Assembly: GCF_000250875.1 (NCBI RefSeq)
Contig: NZ_JH604861.1
Span: 1 to 10,267 of the forward strand
Source of the DNA: Sutterella parvirubra YIT 11816
Lineage (GTDB): Bacteria > Pseudomonadota > Gammaproteobacteria > Burkholderiales > Burkholderiaceae_F
Length of the DNA stretch: 10,267 nt
Direction: 5' to 3'
Shown here: positions 986 through 10,267 of the stretch, in pieces
How the letters are laid out: every line of letters starts with the position of its first letter
Numbering within the stretch: position 1 is the first letter of the stretch
Made by a program: the position numbers and the translations under genes
Notes under the pieces: model-generated
The model's input: only the letters and a program-made list of their open reading frames with translations
The model's database searches: none
What the model was told of the DNA's origin: nothing

Positions 986-1119
986 ATTCGACGTGCGTGC
1001 TCCGGGGCCGCGCATGCCCATCCGTCCGCTTCGTCCTTCTCCGGAGCTTGACCCGCCTTCCGTCAAAGAATCCGACCCCGGGCGCTTCGGCGCTCACTTG
1101 CCGCACCATAAGGACAACC

Positions 1120-3132
1120 ATGGACGAACTCATCTACGGCGTCTGGGAAGGCCGACCCTACGACAACCGGCGCCGCCCCGAAGGGGAATCGCCCGAAGGG
1201 CTCGACCTCGAAGGCTTCATGAGCTTCAATTCAGGAAACCCGGTCACCGGGTTCGTGGGTCCCCAGGGATTCCTGATCTTCGACAACCGCGTCACCTTGG
1301 CGCACACCCTTTGGCGCTACTACGAGCGCACGATGAAGCTCTCGTGCGGGCGCTGCACGCCCTGCCGCATGGGGTCGGTCGTGATCGCCGAAGCCCTGGA
1401 GAAGGCCGCGAAGGGCGAAGGGCGCGCGGTCGATTGGGAGCTCGTCATGGAGGTCGCCCGGCAGATGCGCGAGACGTCGCTCTGCGGGATCGGGCTCACG
1501 ACGCCCGAGGCGCTGATCGGCGCTCTGACCTACTTCCCCGAACTTCTGCGCGACGCGCCGGCCCAGCCCCCGGTGAAGCACGACTTCTACGCGGTGGCGA
1601 CCGCGCCCTGCATCGAAGCCTGCCCCGCGCACGTCAACATTCCTCGCTACATCGACTACATCCGGGACGGCCATCCCGAGCTCGCGACGGGGGTGCTGCT
1701 GGAGCACTACCCCTTGGTCGGCTCCTGCGGGCGCGTCTGCGTGCGCCCGTGCGAAAAGGCCTGCGTGCGCAACAAGGTCGACGCCCCGGTCTCGATCAAG
1801 GACCTGAAGCGCTACGCCGCGGACCACGCGGGGGCGCCCATCGAGCAGCTCTTCATCGAGAGCGAAAAGCCGGCGGCGACGCCGGTCTCCGCGCACGTCG
1901 CGGTCGTGGGGGCGGGCCCCGCGGGGATCAACTGCGCGTACCACCTTTTGAAGCGCGGCCACTTCGTCGACATCTTCGAAGCGAAGCCCCACGCGGGCGG
2001 CATGGCGCGCCTGGGGATTCCGGCGTACCGGCTTCCGAACGACCTCCTGGCGAGCGAAACCGAAGCGATCGAACGCATGGGCGGGCGGTACTTCTTTGAG
2101 AAGGCCCTGGGGCGCGACTTCACGATCGATTCGCTCCTGAAGCGCGGCTACCGCGCGGTGTTCCTGGGCGTGGGCTGCGCGTTGGGGCAGCATCTCGGTC
2201 TCCCCGACGAGGACGTCACGGCCAAGGGGTACTTGAAAGGCCTCGACTTCCTTTTGGACATCGAAGCGAAGCAGACCGAAGGCGTTGAGCTGGAATTGGA
2301 CGGCGACGTCGTCGTGGTCGGCTGCGGGAACGTCGCGATGGACTGCTGCCGCTCCGCGCGCCGACTTCTCAAAAACGGGCGCGTGACGGTGTCGTACCGC
2401 CGCACCCGCGCGAGCGCTCCGGCCGACCCCGCCGAAATCACGGCGGCCTTGGAAGAGGACATCGAATTCGCGTTCCTGACGGCGCCGAAGCGCGTTCTGG
2501 TCGAGGACGGTCGGGTGGTCGGGATCGAGTTGGTCCGCATGGAAGAGACCGAACCCGACGCGTCCGGCCGCCGCGGCGTGCGCGCCGTCGAGGGGAGCGA
2601 ATTCGTGATCCCCTGCCGATACGTGATCGCCGCCATCGGTCAGAAGATGGACGGCTCGATCTTCTGCGAGAAGGACGGCATCCGCTTGACCCGCAGGGGC
2701 ACGATCGAGGTGAAGGACGACCTTTCGACCTCGCGCCCCGGCGTCTTCGCCGGGGGCGACGCCGCTGCGGGCCCCACGTCCCTCATTTGGGGGATGGCGG
2801 ACGGCCAGACCGCCGCGCAGTCGATCCACGAGTGGCTCCTCACCGAAGACACGGGCTTCATCCCGCGCCGCCGGATGACCGCGATGATCCACGACGCGAA
2901 GCTTCTGGATCACTGCCCGGCGCCCCGCGCCGGGGCCGTGCTCCCGACGCCGCGCCACCACGTGGCGCACCTCCCTGCCGACGAGCGCATCCACCACTGG
3001 GAGGAAGTCGAATTCGGCATGACGGATGCGGAGGCGAGGCGCGAAGCGTCCCGCTGCATGCGCTGCTACCGGCTCTTCGCCGCGGCGACGCTCCTCCCGA
3101 TTCCGGGCAAATCCGAACTGGAGGCGCTCTGA
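1120..3132 (+). CDS. NuoF-type [4Fe-4S] domain fused to a GltD-like FAD/NAD(P)H oxidoreductase; probable electron-input subunit of the [FeFe] hydrogenase
   Basis: This 670-residue soluble protein probably moves electrons between NAD(P)H and the hydrogenase encoded next. Residues 35-145 match the C-terminal iron-sulfur domain of NuoF/HoxF (S-C76-G-R-C79-T-P-C82-R and S-L-C122-G-I-G), but the FMN/NADH-binding domain that normally precedes it is missing. Residues 155-235 are the GltD-type iron-sulfur domain (C164 and C168, then C203, C207, C211 and C215). An FAD fold follows (VAVVGAGPAG, 260-269), then a pyridine-nucleotide fold (VVVVGCGNVAMD, 397-408, followed by SYRRTR, whose arginines suggest NADPH), and the second FAD segment GVFAGGDAAAGPTSLIWGMA (541-560). 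The C-terminus has C646 and C649. The ATG at 1120, with AGGA five bases upstream, is preferred to an in-frame ATG at 997 whose extra 41 residues look non-coding. The stop overlaps the next start by one base, indicating translational coupling. GltD here does not imply glutamate synthesis; this subunit type also serves hydrogenases and other reductases. Confidence 0.88.
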   Translation: MDELIYGVWEGRPYDNRRRPEGESPEGLDLEGFMSFNSGNPVTGFVGPQGFLIFDNRVTLAHTLWRYYERTMKLSCGRCTPCRMGSVVIAEALEKAAKGEGRAVDWELVMEVARQMRETSLCGIGLTTPEALIGALTYFPELLRDAPAQPPVKHDFYAVATAPCIEACPAHVNIPRYIDYIRDGHPELATGVLLEHYPLVGSCGRVCVRPCEKACVRNKVDAPVSIKDLKRYAADHAGAPIEQLFIESEKPAATPVSAHVAVVGAGPAGINCAYHLLKRGHFVDIFEAKPHAGGMARLGIPAYRLPNDLLASETEAIERMGGRYFFEKALGRDFTIDSLLKRGYRAVFLGVGCALGQHLGLPDEDVTAKGYLKGLDFLLDIEAKQTEGVELELDGDVVVVGCGNVAMDCCRSARRLLKNGRVTVSYRRTRASAPADPAEITAALEEDIEFAFLTAPKRVLVEDGRVVGIELVRMEETEPDASGRRGVRAVEGSEFVIPCRYVIAAIGQKMDGSIFCEKDGIRLTRRGTIEVKDDLSTSRPGVFAGGDAAAGPTSLIWGMADGQTAAQSIHEWLLTEDTGFIPRRRMTAMIHDAKLLDHCPAPRAGAVLPTPRHHVAHLPADERIHHWEEVEFGMTDAEARREASRCMRCYRLFAAATLLPIPGKSELEAL

Positions 3133-5033
3133 TGACGGAGAACGTGATGAATGAAGCAGTGAAGGGAGAGGCGGCGATGACGAATGAACACAACGGGGTG
3201 GCGGACCTCCGCGCGGTGATCAACGGGCGCGAGGTGGCGTTCCGCGAGGGCGAAACGGTTCTGGAAGCCGCGCGCCGCGAGGGCGTCTTCATCGAGACGC
3301 TCTGCGAATTCGCGGAAATGGGGCACCGCCCGGGAACCTGCCGCATGTGCCTGGTGGAGGTGACGCCCGTGGAGGGCGACGCGTTCGTCGCGACCTCCTG
3401 CGACACGGTGCTGCGCGCGGGCTGGAGGGTCGAAACCAAGACCGCGAAGATCCGCCGGATGCAGAAGCTCCAACTGGAACTCCTGATGGCCGACCACTGC
3501 CAGGACTGCGCGCGCTGCTCGCGCCATGGGGCGTGCGAATTGCAGTCCGCGGGGATGCGCCTGGGGCTTCGCGCCCCCGCGCGCATCCACTTCCGCCCGA
3601 AGGCGGCGGAGCGGCGCTATGACGACTCCCGCCGGGCATTGGTCTTTGACGGGAGCCGGTGCGTGCGGTGCCTGCGCTGCGTCGAAGCCTGCCGCAAGGT
3701 GGCGGGGCAGAGCGCGCTCACCTTGAACGGCGTGGGGACCTCGGCCGCGATCGGCTTCGGGCCGGTCGGCATGAAGTGGGCCGAGAGCAGCCGCTGCGTC
3801 GCCTGCGGGCAGTGCACGTTGGTGTGCCCGACAGGGGCGTTGTCGGAAAAGGACCAGGGCGACGTGCTCCTCGACTGGATCGAGGATCCGGCGGTCACGA
3901 CCGTCGTGCAGACGGCGCCCGCGGTGCGGGTGCAGCTGGGCGAAGCCTTCGGGCTCCCGCCCGGGACCAACGTCGAAGGCCGCATCACGGCGGCGTTGAA
4001 AGCCTTGGGCGTCGACTTCGTGATGGACACGCGCTGGTCCGCCGACGTGACGATCATGGAGGAGGGGACGGAGGTTCTCGCCAAACTCAAGGCCGACCGT
4101 GAGGCCGGCCGCCGCGGCACGTACTTCACGTCCTGCTGCCCGGGCTGGGTGAACTACGTCGAGCTTTCCGCCCCGGAATTGACCCCGAACTTGTCCTCCA
4201 CCCGCAGCCCCCAGGCGATCTTCGGCGCCCTGTCGAAGACCTATCTGCCTCAAAAGAAGGGGCTCGATGCCAAGGCGATCCGCACCATCGCCATCATGCC
4301 CTGCACCGCGAAGAAGGAGGAGGCCGCGAGGCCCACGCTCGTCCGCGAAGCGGGCGTGCAGGACACCGACCTCGTGCTCACCACCCGCGAATTCGCGGCG
4401 GTGCTGCGCCGCGCCGGGATCGACCTCGCGCAGATGCCCGAAGTCCCGTACGACTCGCCCTTCATGAGCGCGTCGTCCGGGGCCGGGGCGCTCTTCGGCG
4501 CGACCGGGGGCGTGATGGAGGCCGCCGTGCGCACGATGCGCGCGGTGACGGGGGTCGACGACAAGACCTGGCGCCCGGCCTTCGAGGCCGTGCGCGGCAT
4601 GGATGGGATCAAGGAGGCCGAAGTGGAACTCCCCGGCGTGGGCGTGATCCGGATCGCGGTCGTGCATGGTCTTGCGAACGTGAAGACCGTGGTGGAGGCC
4701 GTGAAGAGGGGCGAATCCCGTTGGGACTTCGTCGAAGTGATGGCCTGCCCCGGCGGCTGCGTCGGGGGCGGGGGCGCGGGCCGCGGGCAGCGGACGCCCC
4801 GCGCGGCGTTGCCGTCACGCCTTCAGGGCATCTGGAAGATTGATGCCGAGGCGCCGATCCGCGCCTCGCACGAGAACCCGGACGTGCGGCGGTTGTACGA
4901 AGACTTCCTGGGCGAGCCGGGCTCGCACTTGGCGCACGATCTTCTTCACTGCGAGTACCGGGACCGCCGGGCGGCGCCCAATCCCCCGTCCGCGGAGCAG
5001 CTCTTCCGGACGGTGGAGTTGACGGGGTATTGA
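3132..5033 (+). CDS. hydA: [FeFe] hydrogenase, M3 type, catalytic subunit
   Basis: This 633-residue enzyme interconverts H2 with protons and electrons. Domains in order: [2Fe-2S] ferredoxin (C58, C70, C73, C90); His-Cys [4Fe-4S] site (H122, C126, C129, C135); two-cluster ferredoxin domain (C177/180/183/187 and C222/225/228/232); and the H-cluster domain from about residue 255. All three signature motifs are present: TSCCPGW (333-339), MPCTAKKEE (389-397) and EVMACPGGC (535-543), supplying the four ligands of the H-cluster [4Fe-4S] and the proton-relay cysteine C335. The last motif is unusual: after the glycine run come A-G-R-G before Q553, where the family normally has GGGQP at once. The ATG at 3132 overlaps the previous stop (TGATG) and has GGAGG seven bases upstream; ATG at 3177 also has a purine-rich site and could be used. 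The partner subunit suggests the glutamate-synthase-linked class (group A2 as I recall HydDB). No maturation genes (hydE, hydF, hydG) are in the window, so they must lie elsewhere if the enzyme is active. Confidence 0.95.
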   Translation: MTENVMNEAVKGEAAMTNEHNGVADLRAVINGREVAFREGETVLEAARREGVFIETLCEFAEMGHRPGTCRMCLVEVTPVEGDAFVATSCDTVLRAGWRVETKTAKIRRMQKLQLELLMADHCQDCARCSRHGACELQSAGMRLGLRAPARIHFRPKAAERRYDDSRRALVFDGSRCVRCLRCVEACRKVAGQSALTLNGVGTSAAIGFGPVGMKWAESSRCVACGQCTLVCPTGALSEKDQGDVLLDWIEDPAVTTVVQTAPAVRVQLGEAFGLPPGTNVEGRITAALKALGVDFVMDTRWSADVTIMEEGTEVLAKLKADREAGRRGTYFTSCCPGWVNYVELSAPELTPNLSSTRSPQAIFGALSKTYLPQKKGLDAKAIRTIAIMPCTAKKEEAARPTLVREAGVQDTDLVLTTREFAAVLRRAGIDLAQMPEVPYDSPFMSASSGAGALFGATGGVMEAAVRTMRAVTGVDDKTWRPAFEAVRGMDGIKEAEVELPGVGVIRIAVVHGLANVKTVVEAVKRGESRWDFVEVMACPGGCVGGGGAGRGQRTPRAALPSRLQGIWKIDAEAPIRASHENPDVRRLYEDFLGEPGSHLAHDLLHCEYRDRRAAPNPPSAEQLFRTVELTGY

Positions 5034-5059
5034 ACCCAGGAAAAGAAGGAGCAAACGCC

Positions 5060-5941
5060 ATGACGGCGAAAGAACCACCCCGAAACGTCATCGACCCACC
5101 CCGAAGCACCGACGGCTTCCGAGCCATCCGTGAGGAAGGGTGGTGCTTCGTCGACAAGACGGACGTCATCGCCCGGCTCGCCGACGTCGGCGACTTTCTG
5201 ATTTTTCTCCGGCCCGCGGGCTTCGGGAAGAGCCTTCTCGTTTCCACTTTGGCCGCCATGTGGCGGGGCGGACCGGACGCCGTCCGGGGTCTTCGCGCGG
5301 AAGGCCGTTGGCGCCATGAATCGTGCCGGGTCGTGGTGATCGACCTTTCAGCAATCCATCTGCCGAACCCCTGGAACGCAGGGGCTTTCGCGTCGGCGGC
5401 GGACGAGCTTCTGCGGCATGCATTCGCGCCTGCGGGATTCGCGACGGCTGCTGAGCCGATGGAGCCGCTCGCGCGATGGCGCGCGTTTTTGGAAGCCTCG
5501 CGGGGCGTCGTGCTCCTCATCGACGGCATCGACGCGCCTCTGCGGAAGGCTCCCGAGGAGGGCCGGACGGAGGTCGGGCGCTTCCTCGAGGGTTTCCTCA
5601 CGATGGTGAAGAACCTCGGGAGCGGCCTGCGGTTCTGCCTCATCACGGGCGAAGCCATGGGGCTCGATCTCGCGGCGGCGGTCAACAACTTCTCGGACGT
5701 CTCGGGCGACCTGCCTTTCGGTGACCTTCTAGGCTTCACGACGGCAGATCTCCGCACCGGCCTTCGGCCGCTTGTTGAGCGGAAGGCGGAGGCCTTGGGG
5801 ACGACGCCGGAGGCGGTGGTCGAGCAGATTGAGCGCACCTGGGAAGGACGGACCTTCGATGAGCTGCGCCGCACCCGCGTCGCGCAGCCTGCGGCCGTGC
5901 TCGCGTTTCTCACGGGGGACGAGGGGTTCCCGGGCGGGTGA
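5060..5941 (+). CDS. Short AAA-ATPase-like protein (PF09820 type) with degenerate ATPase motifs
   Basis: The 293-residue product follows the pattern of the AAA-ATPase-like family common in gut bacteria: FRAIREEGWCFVDKT (20-34, usual pattern K-I-R-E-x-G-Y-x-Y-V-D-K-T), RPAGFGKS (51-58, usual RPRRFGKS Walker A), LLIDGIDAP (152-160, usual LIDEYDKP Walker B), an ITG sensor strand (195-197) and DLLGFTTADLR (222-232). It lacks the second half of the family, where a PD-(D/E)xK nuclease-like domain normally sits, and ends just past TWEGRTFDELRRTRV. The Walker B glutamate is replaced by glycine, so ATP hydrolysis is doubtful. The ATG at 5060 has AAGGAG eight bases upstream; a TTG at 5030 overlapping the hydrogenase stop is less likely. 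It starts 26 bases after hydA and may be co-transcribed. No function is known to me; it may be a decaying copy of a multi-copy family. Confidence 0.75.
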   Translation: MTAKEPPRNVIDPPRSTDGFRAIREEGWCFVDKTDVIARLADVGDFLIFLRPAGFGKSLLVSTLAAMWRGGPDAVRGLRAEGRWRHESCRVVVIDLSAIHLPNPWNAGAFASAADELLRHAFAPAGFATAAEPMEPLARWRAFLEASRGVVLLIDGIDAPLRKAPEEGRTEVGRFLEGFLTMVKNLGSGLRFCLITGEAMGLDLAAAVNNFSDVSGDLPFGDLLGFTTADLRTGLRPLVERKAEALGTTPEAVVEQIERTWEGRTFDELRRTRVAQPAAVLAFLTGDEGFPGG

Positions 5942-6152: not shown

Positions 6153-6686
6153 TCAAAGAGACGCGCCCAACTTCCTCGCTTCGTCGAGCGCGCCGGTTTC
6201 TTCCAAGGGGCGCATCGCGAGCCCCAGGCCGAAGACCTGACCCGCGTTCGTCCACTTGAGGTACCCGCAGATCGCGCGGAACTGGGCGGAAAGGGGCTCC
6301 ATCGCTTCCGGCGCGGGGCCTGCGGCGACGGCAAGCAGAACCGCCTTCAAGCCCTTGGCGGCCACTTCGTCGTTGCGGGAGACGAAGCGGTCGACGACGG
6401 CTTTGAGCTGCGCGGTCATCCCGTAGTAGTACAAGGGCGTCGCGAGCACGACCGCGTCCGCCTTGAGAAGCGACGTGAAGACCTTCGCCATGCCGTCCGT
6501 GTCGACGTCCTCACCCTTGGTGAGGCGCTCGAGAAGCGCGTTCGTGCAGGGCTCGATCGTGAGCGTTTCGACGTCGATGCGCTCGACCTCGTGGCCCGCG
6601 GCGCGGGCGCCTTCCGAGAAGGCTTCGGCCAAAGCGGCGGTGGTGCCTTCGAGGTGGGGGCTGCCCATCAAGAGACAGATCTTCAT
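6153..6686 (-). CDS. Flavodoxin-fold NAD(P)H-dependent oxidoreductase
   Basis: This 177-residue cytoplasmic protein belongs to the FMN-dependent NAD(P)H oxidoreductase/flavodoxin_2 group, which reduces quinones, nitro- or azo-compounds or other electron acceptors. The N-terminus MKICLLMGSPHLEGTTAAL contains the FMN-phosphate loop (GSPH-x-x-GTTA); ADAVVLATPLYYYGMTAQLKA holds the second flavin-contact loop (P-L-Y-Y-Y-G-M), followed by a conserved V-D-R-F segment. Many relatives carry a C-x-x-C type motif after the first third, but here only one Cys remains (E-P-C-T). The ATG at 6686 has AAAGGA eight bases upstream. It follows the WYL-TyrA gene on the same strand with a gap of 150 bases containing a stem-loop, so it is probably a separate or partly read-through unit. 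The substrate cannot be told from sequence. Confidence 0.85.
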   Translation of the reverse strand: MKICLLMGSPHLEGTTAALAEAFSEGARAAGHEVERIDVETLTIEPCTNALLERLTKGEDVDTDGMAKVFTSLLKADAVVLATPLYYYGMTAQLKAVVDRFVSRNDEVAAKGLKAVLLAVAAGPAPEAMEPLSAQFRAICGYLKWTNAGQVFGLGLAMRPLEETGALDEARKLGASL

Positions 6687-6761
6687 GGTGTTGGTCCTTT
6701 GGGTTGAATTCGATTTTCGGGGGCGCACCGGGAACATTCAGGTGTCCGGGCGCCCGGGCCC

Positions 6762-6836: not shown

Positions 6837-8789
6837 TCAGCCCTGCGGCTTCGGCTGTGCCTTGGCGGCCTCGGCCCGCCGGCGGCGTTCGGCCTGAACG
6901 AGTGCCAGCATCCGACCGCTCTCCTTCATTGCGGTGTCGGCCCAGCTGCCGAACCAGCCGCGGGCGGTCATGAAGCGCGAGATGAAGGCGTCGCGGTCGC
7001 GGCGAAGCACCATGTCGAGCTCCGGCGCCAAGCTCTCGACGTAGGCGCGGATGATGTCGGCGTTCGCTTCGGAACTCAAGACGATGTCGGCGTAGAGCCG
7101 GGGATCCTGTGCGAAAAGACGCCCCACCATCTCGAGCTCCAACCGGTAGATGGGGGACGAGAGCGCGAGGATCTGGCGCAGATCCGGCCGGATCTTCGAG
7201 AGGAAGACGCCGTAGGCGTAGGTCGTGAAGTGGCGGAGCGCCTGGATGATGCTCATCGAGCGGTCGTGGTCCGCGGCGGAGCATTCGACGACGGAGACGT
7301 CTTCGGACAAAAGGTCCCGGCGGAGTTCTTCCGAGGCTTCGGGGCAGCGTGCCCGGACGTAGACGAAGACCTGACGCGCGAGGTCGACGACGTCCGGCCC
7401 GAACATCGGGTGCATGCCGAGGACGGGGCCGGTGTGGGCCTTCAACATCGCTTCGACCGGCGCGCGCTTCACGCTCGTCACGTCGCAGAGCAGCGTGTCG
7501 GGGTCAAGAAGCGGCCCCAACTGCTTGATCACCGCGATCGTCACGTCGATCGGCGCCGACACGACGACGATCCCGGCCCCCGCGAGAATCTCGCGCGCGC
7601 GGGGCCAGTCGTCCCGCTCCAGAATCCGCACGGGGTGGCCGTGACGTCGGAAGAACGCCTGGAGGATCTTCCCCATGCCGCCCGCACCGCCCACGATGAC
7701 GACGGGCTTGCGGGAGGGTTCGGCCTGCGCGGGAAGAGCCGGATCAGCGGCCCCGGCGGCTTCACCGGAGGAAGCCGCTCCGAAGGCCGCATCCGCCGCA
7801 TCGCCCGGCATCGGATCGAGCCACGCGCGCTTTTCGACGAGCCGGATCCCTGCGGCGTCCCGCCACATGGCGAGCCACCCGTCGACGGCGGGCGTGTCGT
7901 CCAGGACGGCGCGCAGGCGCCACCCGTCGGGGAGCTTCGTCAGTTCCTGCTCGGCGCGGAAAGGCGTCTCTCTGAGGTTCCGGGCGGTGACGTCGCTCGT
8001 GAACTCCACGATGAGTTCGATCTTCTGGCCGTTCGAGTAGTTGAAGTGGCGCGAGGTCACGTAGGCTTCCAACGAAAACCCTTCGGGGCGGCGCGCCTGG
8101 CGCTCCAGAAGGTGCGCGCGCTTCATGCGGTGGAGCGCGAGGTGCCGCACGTCGTCGTAGTTTTCAAAGACGCAGACGAGGTAGAGGCGGCTGTCCTGCT
8201 GAACGAGCCCCAGAGGGGAGACCGTCCCCACCGTTTCGTGCCCCTGGGTGTTGACGTACTTGATCTCGATGAGGCTCCCGCGAAAGAGCGCTTCGCTCAC
8301 GGTCTCGAAGACCTTCCCGTCGATCGCGGGCGGCACGACGGGAAGGGCGGGCGAGACGAAGGCGACTTTGTTCAGCCACGCCCTGGCCTTTTCGCTCCGG
8401 GCGTCCTCGTGAAGGACGTCCTTCGCCGCGTCGAAGAGCGAGGCCATCCCGCGCGCGATGTAGGGCGGGAGCTGGTGCTTCAGGTGCTCTTCGCAGAGCC
8501 GCAGCGTCAACGCTTCGCGGGGCGTCAGCCTCGTCGTCGCCAAGTCCGAGACGTCGGGCCCGCGCCGGTACCGGTAGGGCTTCGTCGTCTTGTCGACTTC
8601 GACGTTCATGTCGGAGGAGAGGACGAGGGACGAGAGCGCCCGCTGAAGACGCCTCGTCGGCACGTCGACGCCGTCGTCGGACAAGCGTTGGGCGAGTTCA
8701 GAAGAGGAGATCCAGCGGCCTCTGGGAATGCGCCTCAGGATGGCGATCAAGGTCGTCGCCTCGGTGAGGGCGTCGGTCGTGCGGGTCAT
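6837..8789 (-). CDS. Fusion of a winged-helix/WYL-type transcription regulator with prephenate dehydrogenase (TyrA)
   Basis: One uninterrupted frame of 650 residues carries two modules. Residues 10-75 look like a winged helix-turn-helix (WISSSELAQRL, then PTRRLQRALSSL). Residues 160-232 are a WYL domain: SPLGLVQQDSRLYLV with the signature triplet read as L-Y-L, then HLALHRMKRAHLL. Residues 255-325 resemble the WCX extension. An Ala/Gly/Pro-rich linker (327-360) leads to a full TyrA domain (362-632): VVIVGGAGGMG nucleotide loop, GMHPMFGPD with the family's catalytic His (H460), IQALRHFTTYAYG, and LALSSPIYRLELEMVGRLFAQDP, very close to the E. coli T-protein. That enzyme makes 4-hydroxyphenylpyruvate from prephenate for tyrosine synthesis, but its N-terminal chorismate mutase is absent here. 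I infer a cytoplasmic regulator that senses, or is governed by, tyrosine-pathway metabolites. The ATG at 8789 follows a -10-like TAAGAT and precedes the helix-turn-helix directly; no clear Shine-Dalgarno is seen. An upstream ATG at 9011 adds 74 R/P-rich residues and crosses the terminator region, so it is rejected. Confidence 0.9.
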   Translation of the reverse strand: MTRTTDALTEATTLIAILRRIPRGRWISSSELAQRLSDDGVDVPTRRLQRALSSLVLSSDMNVEVDKTTKPYRYRRGPDVSDLATTRLTPREALTLRLCEEHLKHQLPPYIARGMASLFDAAKDVLHEDARSEKARAWLNKVAFVSPALPVVPPAIDGKVFETVSEALFRGSLIEIKYVNTQGHETVGTVSPLGLVQQDSRLYLVCVFENYDDVRHLALHRMKRAHLLERQARRPEGFSLEAYVTSRHFNYSNGQKIELIVEFTSDVTARNLRETPFRAEQELTKLPDGWRLRAVLDDTPAVDGWLAMWRDAAGIRLVEKRAWLDPMPGDAADAAFGAASSGEAAGAADPALPAQAEPSRKPVVIVGGAGGMGKILQAFFRRHGHPVRILERDDWPRAREILAGAGIVVVSAPIDVTIAVIKQLGPLLDPDTLLCDVTSVKRAPVEAMLKAHTGPVLGMHPMFGPDVVDLARQVFVYVRARCPEASEELRRDLLSEDVSVVECSAADHDRSMSIIQALRHFTTYAYGVFLSKIRPDLRQILALSSPIYRLELEMVGRLFAQDPRLYADIVLSSEANADIIRAYVESLAPELDMVLRRDRDAFISRFMTARGWFGSWADTAMKESGRMLALVQAERRRRAEAAKAQPKPQG

Positions 8790-8824
8790 GGTCGGTCCGG
8801 GTTGGGTAGTCGGTCGAATGACCC
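8772..8824. promoter_or_regulatory. Candidate operator at the WYL-TyrA start: three direct repeats and one inverted repeat
   Basis: GTCGGTC occurs at 8772-8778, 8791-8797 and 8809-8815, spaced 19 and 18 bases apart, so roughly on the same face of the helix every two turns. A perfect 7-bp inverted repeat, GGGTCAT (8783-8789) and ATGACCC (8818-8824), encloses two of them and includes the start codon. The cluster lies between the -10 candidate and the first codons, a typical place for a repressor to block transcription. Binding by the encoded WYL protein is inference. Confidence 0.45.
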
Positions 8825-8830
8825 ATCTTA
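8825..8830 (-). promoter_or_regulatory. Candidate -10 element of the WYL-TyrA gene
   Basis: The minus strand reads TAAGAT, one of few AT-rich hexamers here and 35 bases upstream of the ATG at 8789. A weak CTTCGA lies 16 bases further upstream as a possible -35 element. The poor -35 suggests a weak or activator-dependent promoter. Confidence 0.35.
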
Positions 8831-8915
8831 CCGCGGCCGCCGGGCTTCGAAGGCGGTGAATCCTCGGTGGAAGCGCGTAGGTGGAAACGGCAGAGCGTCG
8901 TGTGTTGACGCAGGA

Positions 8916-8951
8916 GGGCGGCCCCATGAGGGGCCCGGGAAGAGGCCGCCC
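8916..8951. repeat. Nested GC hairpin upstream of the WYL-TyrA promoter
   Basis: GGGCGGCC (8916-8923) and GGCCGCCC (8944-8951) form a perfect 8-bp inverted repeat. A competing smaller hairpin, GCCCC-ATGA-GGGGC, lies at 8921-8934. It sits just beyond the terminator at 8960-8993 on the minus strand and has no T tract of its own. It could back up termination or be a binding site. Confidence 0.4.
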
Positions 8952-8959
8952 GGGGCGCG

Positions 8960-8993
8960 AAAAAAGGCCCCGGACCCTTGCGGGTGCCGGGGC
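8960..8993 (-). terminator. Strong Rho-independent terminator of the FAD reductase gene
   Basis: GCCCCGG and ACCC (8967-8977) pair with GGGT and CCGGGGC (8982-8985, 8987-8993) around a 4-base loop with one bulged G. On the minus strand the stem is followed by CTTTTTT (A run at 8960-8965 on the plus strand). It lies 70 bases after the stop at 9063 and insulates the WYL-TyrA gene from upstream transcription. Confidence 0.85.
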
Positions 8994-9022
8994 AAACTCA
9001 CATTCACTCAAAGAACCGGGGG

Positions 9023-9049
9023 CCGGGATCGGAAGGTTCCGGTTCCCGG
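9023..9049 (-). terminator. First of two tandem stem-loops after the FAD reductase gene
   Basis: CCGGGA (9023-9028) pairs with TCCCGG (9044-9049), and the inner CGGA (9030-9033) with TCCG (9038-9041) around AGGT. It begins 14 bases after the stop at 9063. The minus strand continues with a G/C stretch and then TTCTTTG, so it is a weaker terminator or a 3'-end stabilising hairpin ahead of the strong one at 8960-8993. Confidence 0.45.
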
Positions 9050-9062
9050 GGAGAAACGTTCG

Positions 9063-10267
9063 TCAGTTCTTCGCGACCTGCTGGCCGGCGATGCGGCCGA
9101 AGACCAGGCAGTCGAGAATGGCGACGGAACCGAGACGCACGGCGCCGTGGACGCCGCCCGTGGCTTCACCGGCCGCAAAGAGGTTCTTGATCGGCTTGTC
9201 CGTGCGCACGTCGAGGACGCGGCAGGTTTCGTCCGTCAGGAGCCCGCCCATGCAGTGGTGAACCTTCGGCTGGCAGAGGCCCGCGTACCAGGGGCCGTCG
9301 ACCATCGGAACCTGGTCGTTGTTGATGTAGCGGCCGAGCTGCGGGTCGTTCTTCGACTTGACGGCTTCGTTGAAGGCGTCGATCGTGGCCTTGAGGTTTT
9401 CGTAGGGGATCTTCGTGCCCTTGGCGAGATCCTCAAGGGTGTCGTACTTCTCGACGATCTTCTGTTCGAGCATGCGTTCAAGGAACCCCGGGCGCTGCTT
9501 CTTCAAGGGACCGACGTTGGGTTCGTTGCAGAGCGCCCAGCACTGGCGGCCGGCCTGCTGCTCGACCATGATCGCGTCGGCGCGGACCTTGCGGTTCGCG
9601 AGTTCGTTCACGAAGCGCTTGCCGTCGGTGTTGACCCACACGCCGTATTCGGCGGCCGCGGTCTGGTTGAACTGCCAACCGATGCCCATGCCCTTTTCCT
9701 TCGGGTTGCCCCAAGGACCGCACTGGATCCAGTCGGCCTGGATCTGCAGGCACCCGATCGCGGCGGTTTCACGCCAAAGCTCAGAGGTGGCGCCCGGCTG
9801 GTTCGTCGTGTCGAGCGTGGCGTCCAACTTCGGGTCCTGGTGCATGCGGAAGGTCACGTCCGCGGAGAAGCCGCCGTAGCAGAGGACGACCCCCTTCGTG
9901 GCGCGGATGAACTTCGTCTTCCCGCTCTTCGCGTCCGGGAAGCGGTAGCCTTCGCGGACTTCAAGACCGAGGACTTCGCCTTCTTCCGTGCGGATGATGT
10001 GTTCGACGTAGCAGCGCTTGCGGATGGGCACGCCGAGCTTCTCGCACATCGCGATTTCCTTCGTGACGATCCCCGAGCCCGAGCCGTTCGTCGTCGTGAC
10101 GTAGCGCGGAACCGAGTGGCCGCCTTCCTGACCGATCGCGTCCGGGAGGTACTCGACGCCGAGTTCCTTCACGGTCCATTCGTAGTTGGAGAGGGCGTGT
10201 TCGGCCATGAGACGGACCTTCTTGCGGTCGTTCATGTAGACCTGAACTTCCCGCCGATTTGACACTC
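9063..10267 (-). CDS. FAD-dependent fumarate-reductase-like flavoprotein (flavocytochrome c family), C-terminal 400 residues, runs off the window
   Basis: The family reduces a C=C bond in small unsaturated acids (fumarate, urocanate, acrylate types), usually in the periplasm as the end of an anaerobic electron chain. Numbering from a GTG at 10265, visible signatures are VNTDGKRFVNELANR (211-225), KVHHCMGGLLTDE (334-346) and AAGEATGGVHGAVRLGS (364-380), then LVFGRIAGQQVAKN at the C-terminus. The N-terminal part with the first FAD-binding loop (about 100 residues or more) and any export signal lie beyond 10267, so the true start is unknown. By manual alignment to Shewanella flavocytochrome c3, the equivalents of R402, H504 and R544 are kept (R225, H337, R377). 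The usual I-Q-x-H-P is I-Q-C-G-P (180-184), and the E378/R381 pair seems lost. The substrate is therefore probably not fumarate. No heme-binding C-x-x-C-H is present in the visible part; partners may be encoded outside the window. Confidence 0.88.
   Translation of the reverse strand, partial: VSNRREVQVYMNDRKKVRLMAEHALSNYEWTVKELGVEYLPDAIGQEGGHSVPRYVTTTNGSGSGIVTKEIAMCEKLGVPIRKRCYVEHIIRTEEGEVLGLEVREGYRFPDAKSGKTKFIRATKGVVLCYGGFSADVTFRMHQDPKLDATLDTTNQPGATSELWRETAAIGCLQIQADWIQCGPWGNPKEKGMGIGWQFNQTAAAEYGVWVNTDGKRFVNELANRKVRADAIMVEQQAGRQCWALCNEPNVGPLKKQRPGFLERMLEQKIVEKYDTLEDLAKGTKIPYENLKATIDAFNEAVKSKNDPQLGRYINNDQVPMVDGPWYAGLCQPKVHHCMGGLLTDETCRVLDVRTDKPIKNLFAAGEATGGVHGAVRLGSVAILDCLVFGRIAGQQVAKN

Follow-up and report, generated by a model that had tools for sequence, protein, structure and literature searches.

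We report a gene in which a WYL-domain transcription regulator is joined in frame to a T-protein-type prephenate dehydrogenase (TyrA), located at 6837-8789 on the minus strand of the window, the 10,267-nucleotide stretch of Sutterella parvirubra YIT 11816 DNA analysed here. This wyl-tyrA gene, whose product of 650 aa we call P0001, appears real and intact: its translation gives 650 codons plus a stop with no break in the frame, and a fused homologue, P0002, is 98% identical. Judging from the sequence, we favour with moderate confidence a recent in-frame fusion whose product works at both ends, as a prephenate dehydrogenase and as a class-A WYL regulator. With an enzyme part and a DNA-binding part on one chain, P0001 has the domain content of a trigger enzyme.

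A sequence-only reading of this DNA had placed a winged helix, a WYL domain, a WCX-like domain and a complete TyrA in a single frame, and translation, Pfam, the structure model and Foldseek all bear this out. Domain searches, which that reading had proposed as a check on the N-terminal half, found WYL (PF13280) there at residues 160-226 with 50.7 bits against a cut-off of 21.8. The start at the ATG at 8789 is supported by P0104, a stand-alone homologue of the regulator, which begins with the identical MTRTTDALTEATTLIAILRRIPR. A clear Shine-Dalgarno sequence is absent from the 41 nt preceding this ATG.

The enzyme half

The TyrA domain spans residues 360-635 (6885-7712, minus strand). Pfam recognises PDH_N at residues 403-466 (47.2 bits) and PDH_C at 505-604 (39.1 bits), and the NCBIfam equivalog profile PRK11199 (chorismate mutase/prephenate dehydrogenase) scores 336.7 bits, well over its cut-off of 273, which marks the domain as T-protein type. 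This match covers profile positions 93-372 of 374 and leaves the mutase part (1-92) unmatched; no chorismate mutase domain family was found in P0001 by Pfam and NCBIfam scans (E <= 1), and the protein is accordingly not an AroQ-TyrA. The profile also exceeds its cut-off in all five Sutterella-type TyrAs scanned, none of which has a complete mutase. Because PRK11199 passes its cut-off despite the absent mutase, automatic naming as a bifunctional chorismate mutase/prephenate dehydrogenase would follow, an annotation trap for a protein that carries a regulator in place of a mutase. The earlier description of this domain as very close to the E. coli T-protein is right as to type and overstated as to degree, since the TyrA half is 44% identical to the prephenate dehydrogenase domain of the Haemophilus influenzae T-protein (2pv7), with an rmsd of 1.3-1.4 A.

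Catalytic, ligand and gating roles were taken from the H. influenzae TyrA residues described in the available text of PMC2954222 and mapped to S439, H460, D466, H508, D509, H520, Y548, R557, Q561, Y566 and G625 of P0001. Ten of the 11 mapped residues are kept, including all nine counterparts of Ser179, His200, His248, Asp249, His260, Tyr288, Arg297, Gln301 and Tyr306; the exception is the gating R365, replaced by G625. Position 625 is Gly in seven rows and Arg in two (the enteric-type P0030 and P0033) of the nine-row alignment A2. The NAD-binding glycines G367, G368, G370 and G373 are also kept. A412 of P0001 is V in the eight other rows of A2, and Ala occurs in 4 of the 33 rows of alignment A4 that have a residue there.

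In a search of 67 genomes of one family, 36 were matched (E <= 1e-50) and seven have a T-type TyrA. PDH_N matches once per genome in all seven, so that the T-type TyrA is their only recognisable prephenate dehydrogenase, and loss of its activity should, by the same token, cost tyrosine prototrophy. We presume that the genome from which the window comes likewise has no TyrA besides that of the fusion. The C-terminal half would be a working prephenate dehydrogenase, and the cell's own, converting prephenate and NAD(P)+ to 4-hydroxyphenylpyruvate.

The regulator half

The N-terminal half follows the domain order of class-A WYL proteins, a class defined by an N-terminal winged helix in the part of PMC12340889 available to us. 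The winged-helix DNA-binding part, residues 1-76 (8562-8789, minus strand, as are all features of the half), is modelled with helices at 7-20, 29-38 and 45-57 and strands at 63-66 and 73-76. A helical part follows at residues 90-139 (8373-8522), with model helices at 90-103, 109-114, 116-125 and 133-139 and a block pLDDT of 54-81; it is the positional equivalent of the three-helix bundle of DriD and is named by analogy to that protein, as far as PMC12340889 describes it in the same available part. The WYL domain occupies residues 142-231 (8097-8366), with model strands at 142-145 and 172-231, and the WCX-like domain residues 256-322 (7824-8024), as seen in the model and in the Foldseek alignment to DriD (8tp8_D).

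No Pfam family was found for the winged helix or the WCX in P0001 (E <= 1), and both calls come from the structure model together with Foldseek alignments to DriD and PafBC. The alignment to 8tp8_D has 327 columns for a DriD chain of 326 residues; the rmsd values for DriD and PafBC, about 14-18 A, are large, in keeping with domains that are free to move. The VIA-align structure list was filled by the TyrA domain and is uninformative on this half. Besides the WYL domain recognised by Pfam and the winged helix placed by model and Foldseek, the C-terminal WCX dimerisation domain of the class is predicted by the model and by the extent of the alignments. We infer that the N-terminal half is an intact class-A WYL regulator, predicted to form a DNA-binding dimer.

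Residues Q49, R50, Y203, L204, R215, A218, L219, H220 and R221 are identical in all 21 rows of alignment A3 (P0001 included), and the WYL-motif tyrosine Y203 is thereby kept together with R215 and R221. PafB R211 and R214 are required for ssDNA binding according to the available portion of PMC11804915, and on our reading of the alignments they correspond to A218 and R221 of P0001. The RxxR pair that marks the ssDNA sensors DriD and PafBC is therefore incomplete, with A218 in place of the first Arg in 21/21 A3 rows; residues 215-221 of P0001 read RHLALHR. As one Arg of the pair is missing throughout the aligned WYL subfamily, we do not claim ssDNA as its ligand, which, to go by this substitution, may differ from that of DriD and PafBC.

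Distribution of the fusion

Relatives of the whole protein were sought by scoring the 7994 candidates that share most words with it, and WYL and TyrA occur together in one of the 102 relatives, P0002. A search for long TyrA proteins, with the TyrA region of the 724-aa open frame as query, gave 202 relatives of 398-1267 aa; among the 120 matches listed of these 202, four are without the mutase family, and only P0002 of the four has a WYL domain. Also among the matches listed are P0216-P0219 (620-733 aa), in which a single chain carries both a DAHP synthase family domain (PF00793) and a T-protein-like TyrA. The WYL-TyrA fusion occurs in none of the seven T-type-TyrA genomes among the 67 of one family, each of which has two or three WYL matches. 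Four of the seven TyrA matches (in G760, G761, G763 and G767) contain one internal stop; since the TyrA frames are complete (366-406 aa), we take these to be matches that extend beyond the stop.

Wider searches gave TyrA matches only. A scan of genome contigs yielded 12 loci, all to the TyrA half and none titled Sutterellaceae, and in viral contigs alignment A2 hit four loci that share 50-51% identity with the TyrA half, with no match for P0001 or A3. Earlier genome screens had matched 119/274 genomes (none Sutterella-like), 0/47 and 28/399, and a screen with the TctC family (11/143 genomes matched) was used to choose a likely Burkholderiales genome. Some relatives carry the name Sutterella in their sources. 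The search for this domain order and its taxonomic spread, suggested with the first description, thus recovered the fusion in a second protein, P0002, but in one narrow lineage only, and we have dropped the idea of a widespread WYL-TyrA architecture.

Origin of the fusion

Close stand-alone relatives exist for each half, P0104 for the WYL half (83% identity) and P0003 for the TyrA half (88%), and the fusion is therefore probably recent. In the complete T-protein P0030 from Aeromonas, PRK11199 matches profile positions 1-373 and CM_T is present. The chorismate mutase part is incomplete in 5/5 Sutterella-type TyrAs scanned: the profile match starts at position 57-61 in P0012, P0014 and P0019 and at 91-93 in P0003 and P0005, and Pfam recognised no mutase in P0003, P0005 and P0012. 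In the model of P0003, residues 8-61 still form a two-helix hairpin, and residues 65-88 after it are disordered. Among the matches listed, P0213 and P0214 (55-57% identical) still have the mutase family. That a regulator stands in the place of chorismate mutase, as first proposed, is upheld, whereas replacement of a working mutase is not: the mutase part is already a remnant in Sutterella-type relatives including P0003, and it is most likely this remnant that gave way to the regulator.

The linker between the halves, residues 323-359 (7713-7823, minus strand), holds the fusion junction. The flexible linker described earlier is real, residues 326-356 being disordered with pLDDT < 50. The junction lies directly before SRKPVVIVGG, a stretch shared with the stand-alone TyrA P0003. 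A wyl gene adjoining tyrA in relatives was sought as the source of the fusion and not found: the stretches around 7/7 tyrA loci (8.7 to 18 kb each, two ending at contig ends) had no WYL match. Only in G760 and G762 do tyrA and a WYL gene share a contig, the nearest WYL gene being about 87 kb away in G760 and about 211 kb away in G762; in the other five genomes they lie on different contigs.

Together these relationships point to a wyl gene that probably moved recently to the front of tyrA and replaced the mutase remnant. In the sequence of events we propose, a wyl gene would have brought along its 5' end, probably together with its promoter, and come to lie directly before tyrA; the junction would fall between the WYL tail and the disordered linker that precedes TyrA, the mutase remnant would have been lost, and tyrA would now be read from a wyl-type promoter. 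The direction of the rearrangement and the origin of the promoter are deduced. The locus would in this way represent a domain replacement caught at a seemingly early stage, in which the mutase decays in the family and a regulator takes its place in one lineage.

Promoter region and neighbouring genes

A -10-like hexamer, TAAGAT (8825-8830, minus strand), lies 35 nt before the ATG, a spacing like that of stand-alone wyl genes. Of nine wyl genes, that of the window among them (only wyl genes were sampled), eight have such a hexamer 20-50 nt upstream, compared with a mean of 2.95 genes in mononucleotide shuffles, 0/300 of which reach 8. The spacing is generic and may at most indicate a promoter directly upstream of the fusion gene; no promoter emerged from a stricter two-hexamer scan. 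A terminator-like hairpin with a T run (8960-8993, minus strand) separates the fusion gene from the flavoprotein gene upstream of it. The region 8945-9062, which includes this hairpin, has a predicted fold with z -2.0 (7/200 shuffles fold as well), and a terminator scan did not report the hairpin. An Rfam search gave no match at gathering scores.

The proposal that the protein represses its own gene is unsupported. Repeat and k-mer analyses identified no operator near 8760-8840: the intergenic repeats are short and GC-rich, and the k-mers common to nine wyl upstream regions, sought as a conserved operator, are barely above shuffles.

The next gene downstream of the fusion encodes an NADPH-dependent FMN reductase-like protein (6153-6737, minus strand; PF03358, 80 bits). 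The same order is found at the G762 locus L092, with tyrA at 7830-8699 and the FMN reductase at 8747-9232, a linkage present in 1/7 tyrA loci only; four of the seven (G760, G763, G765 and G770) have another gene block in common. On the plus strand, 1090-5033 holds two genes: the first encodes NuoF-type iron-sulfur and pyridine-nucleotide oxidoreductase domains, the second an iron-only [FeFe] hydrogenase (Fe_hyd_lg_C, Fe_hyd_SSU). We take this pair to resemble an electron-bifurcating hydrogenase, which to our knowledge seems unusual for a betaproteobacterium. It is followed at 5030-5941 (plus strand) by a gene that starts at the end of the hydrogenase frame and encodes a 303-aa AAA-ATPase_like protein (PF09820), whose C-terminal end has no other domain.

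Function of the fused protein

In the reading that we favour, the N-terminal half would stay a dimeric DNA-binding regulator while the disordered linker lets each half dimerise independently. The main effect expected, given this independence, would be to couple enzyme and regulator in amount and location.

The two fused sequences bear on whether both halves are under selection. P0002 has 655 aa and the same architecture; it represents a cluster of 169 member sequences and 2 contigs, with sources ncbi, lgn and ena, its architecture being known from the representative sequence alone. Compared with P0001, it shows no differences in residues 1-329, three in the linker (one inserted residue and two substitutions) and two in the TyrA domain, A412V and S615G; the remainder lie in the C-tail. 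This pattern fits selection on both folded halves, as far as a comparison of sequences goes. Promoter capture or a near-neutral accident, in which only the enzyme matters and the regulator is a passenger whose fold is kept since the fusion is young, is a serious rival given that there are two fused sequences in one narrow lineage, and the close stand-alone relatives that date the fusion as probably recent speak for it. We nevertheless consider it a minority possibility: the regulator half shows zero differences against two in TyrA (a weak argument, from n=2 fused sequences), and the residues invariant across the WYL family are kept.

The sequence-only reading had suggested that binding of prephenate, NAD or tyrosine sets DNA binding. 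P0001 would then be a metabolite-gated one-component switch similar to PutA, in which prephenate, tyrosine or NAD(H) on TyrA alters DNA binding by the N-terminal part. Both halves are indeed intact on one chain, tyrosine-bound H. influenzae TyrA is more closed than tyrosine-free TyrAs (in the available text of PMC2954222), and transcriptional repression by enzymes has precedents in PutA and BirA (in the accessible part of PMC6978683). Against this stand a linker disordered over about 31 residues, a pTM of 0.55 for the full-length P0001 model, with no fixed interface predicted in this monomer model, the absence of a wyl gene from the stretch around tyrA in 7/7 genomes, and the failure to find an operator upstream. 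We therefore regard the switch as unlikely and the suggestion as unsupported; direct transfer of the ligand state of TyrA to the DNA-binding part is possible and is not our default. A new type of trigger enzyme, with a WYL regulon whose activity depends on whether TyrA is occupied by prephenate or tyrosine, is doubtful to the same extent. If it were true, a WYL regulator would have gained a primary-metabolite sensor, and a committed step of tyrosine synthesis would lie inside a transcription factor.

It is improbable, more so than the switch, that two proteins are made, with an internal start or proteolysis in the linker separating regulator and enzyme. In-frame ATG codons are present at residue 327, inside the linker, and at 308 and 372, and the 25 nt before residue 327 lack a clear Shine-Dalgarno sequence, which argues little, as the main start is also without one.

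An assembly chimera or frameshift artefact is hardly credible: the single-member proteins P0038 and P0043 are chimera-like joins of the same WYL family to unrelated domains, for which reason the member count of the P0002 cluster matters, but P0002 stands for 169 members from three sources and has a different linker with both frames kept. P0038 and P0043, which join the WYL family to PF11795 plus PF09983 and to PF01261, are probably assembly chimeras themselves; PF11795 and PF09983 are presumably JetD-like.

Comparison with known systems

Our favoured reading, a prephenate dehydrogenase and a class-A WYL regulator working on one chain, sets the protein beside several known systems. The AroQ-TyrA T-protein of enteric bacteria has the same type of TyrA (PRK11199, 2pv7), preceded in the same position by a partner domain; here this partner is a winged helix-WYL-WCX regulator instead of chorismate mutase. 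TyrA is a frequent fusion partner, and the partners named in the available part of PMC1173090 (AroQ, AroF, HisHb, ACT and REG) are catalytic or small-molecule regulatory, none of them a DNA-binding regulator. With DriD of Caulobacter and PafBC of actinobacteria, P0001 shares the order of winged helix, helical part, WYL and WCX, and its Foldseek matches span the length of DriD; unlike them, it is fused to an enzyme and has A218 as the first RxxR residue. WYL-enzyme fusions listed in the accessible text of PMC4012209 involve Cas3, nucleases, a helicase and other defence-type domains, that is, nucleic-acid or defence enzymes and none for amino-acid biosynthesis. That the WYL part of P0001 is defence cargo is an idea we do not favour. 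In the open-licence literature, no paper was found with 'WYL domain' and 'prephenate dehydrogenase' or with 'WYL', 'TyrA' and 'fusion', in agreement with the initial statement that no described WYL fusion to an amino-acid biosynthetic enzyme is known.

A further parallel is offered by the trigger enzymes PutA and BirA, which, in the available portion of PMC6978683, unite catalytic and DNA-binding functions on one protein, as predicted here, and differ in their enzymes and pathways. Enzyme-regulator fusions are already known, and it is the pairing of WYL with TyrA that is new. Since each half has a close unfused relative (83% and 88% identical), the joined and separate states can be set directly side by side, and such a comparison could show at what point a fusion of enzyme and regulator turns into a real switch.
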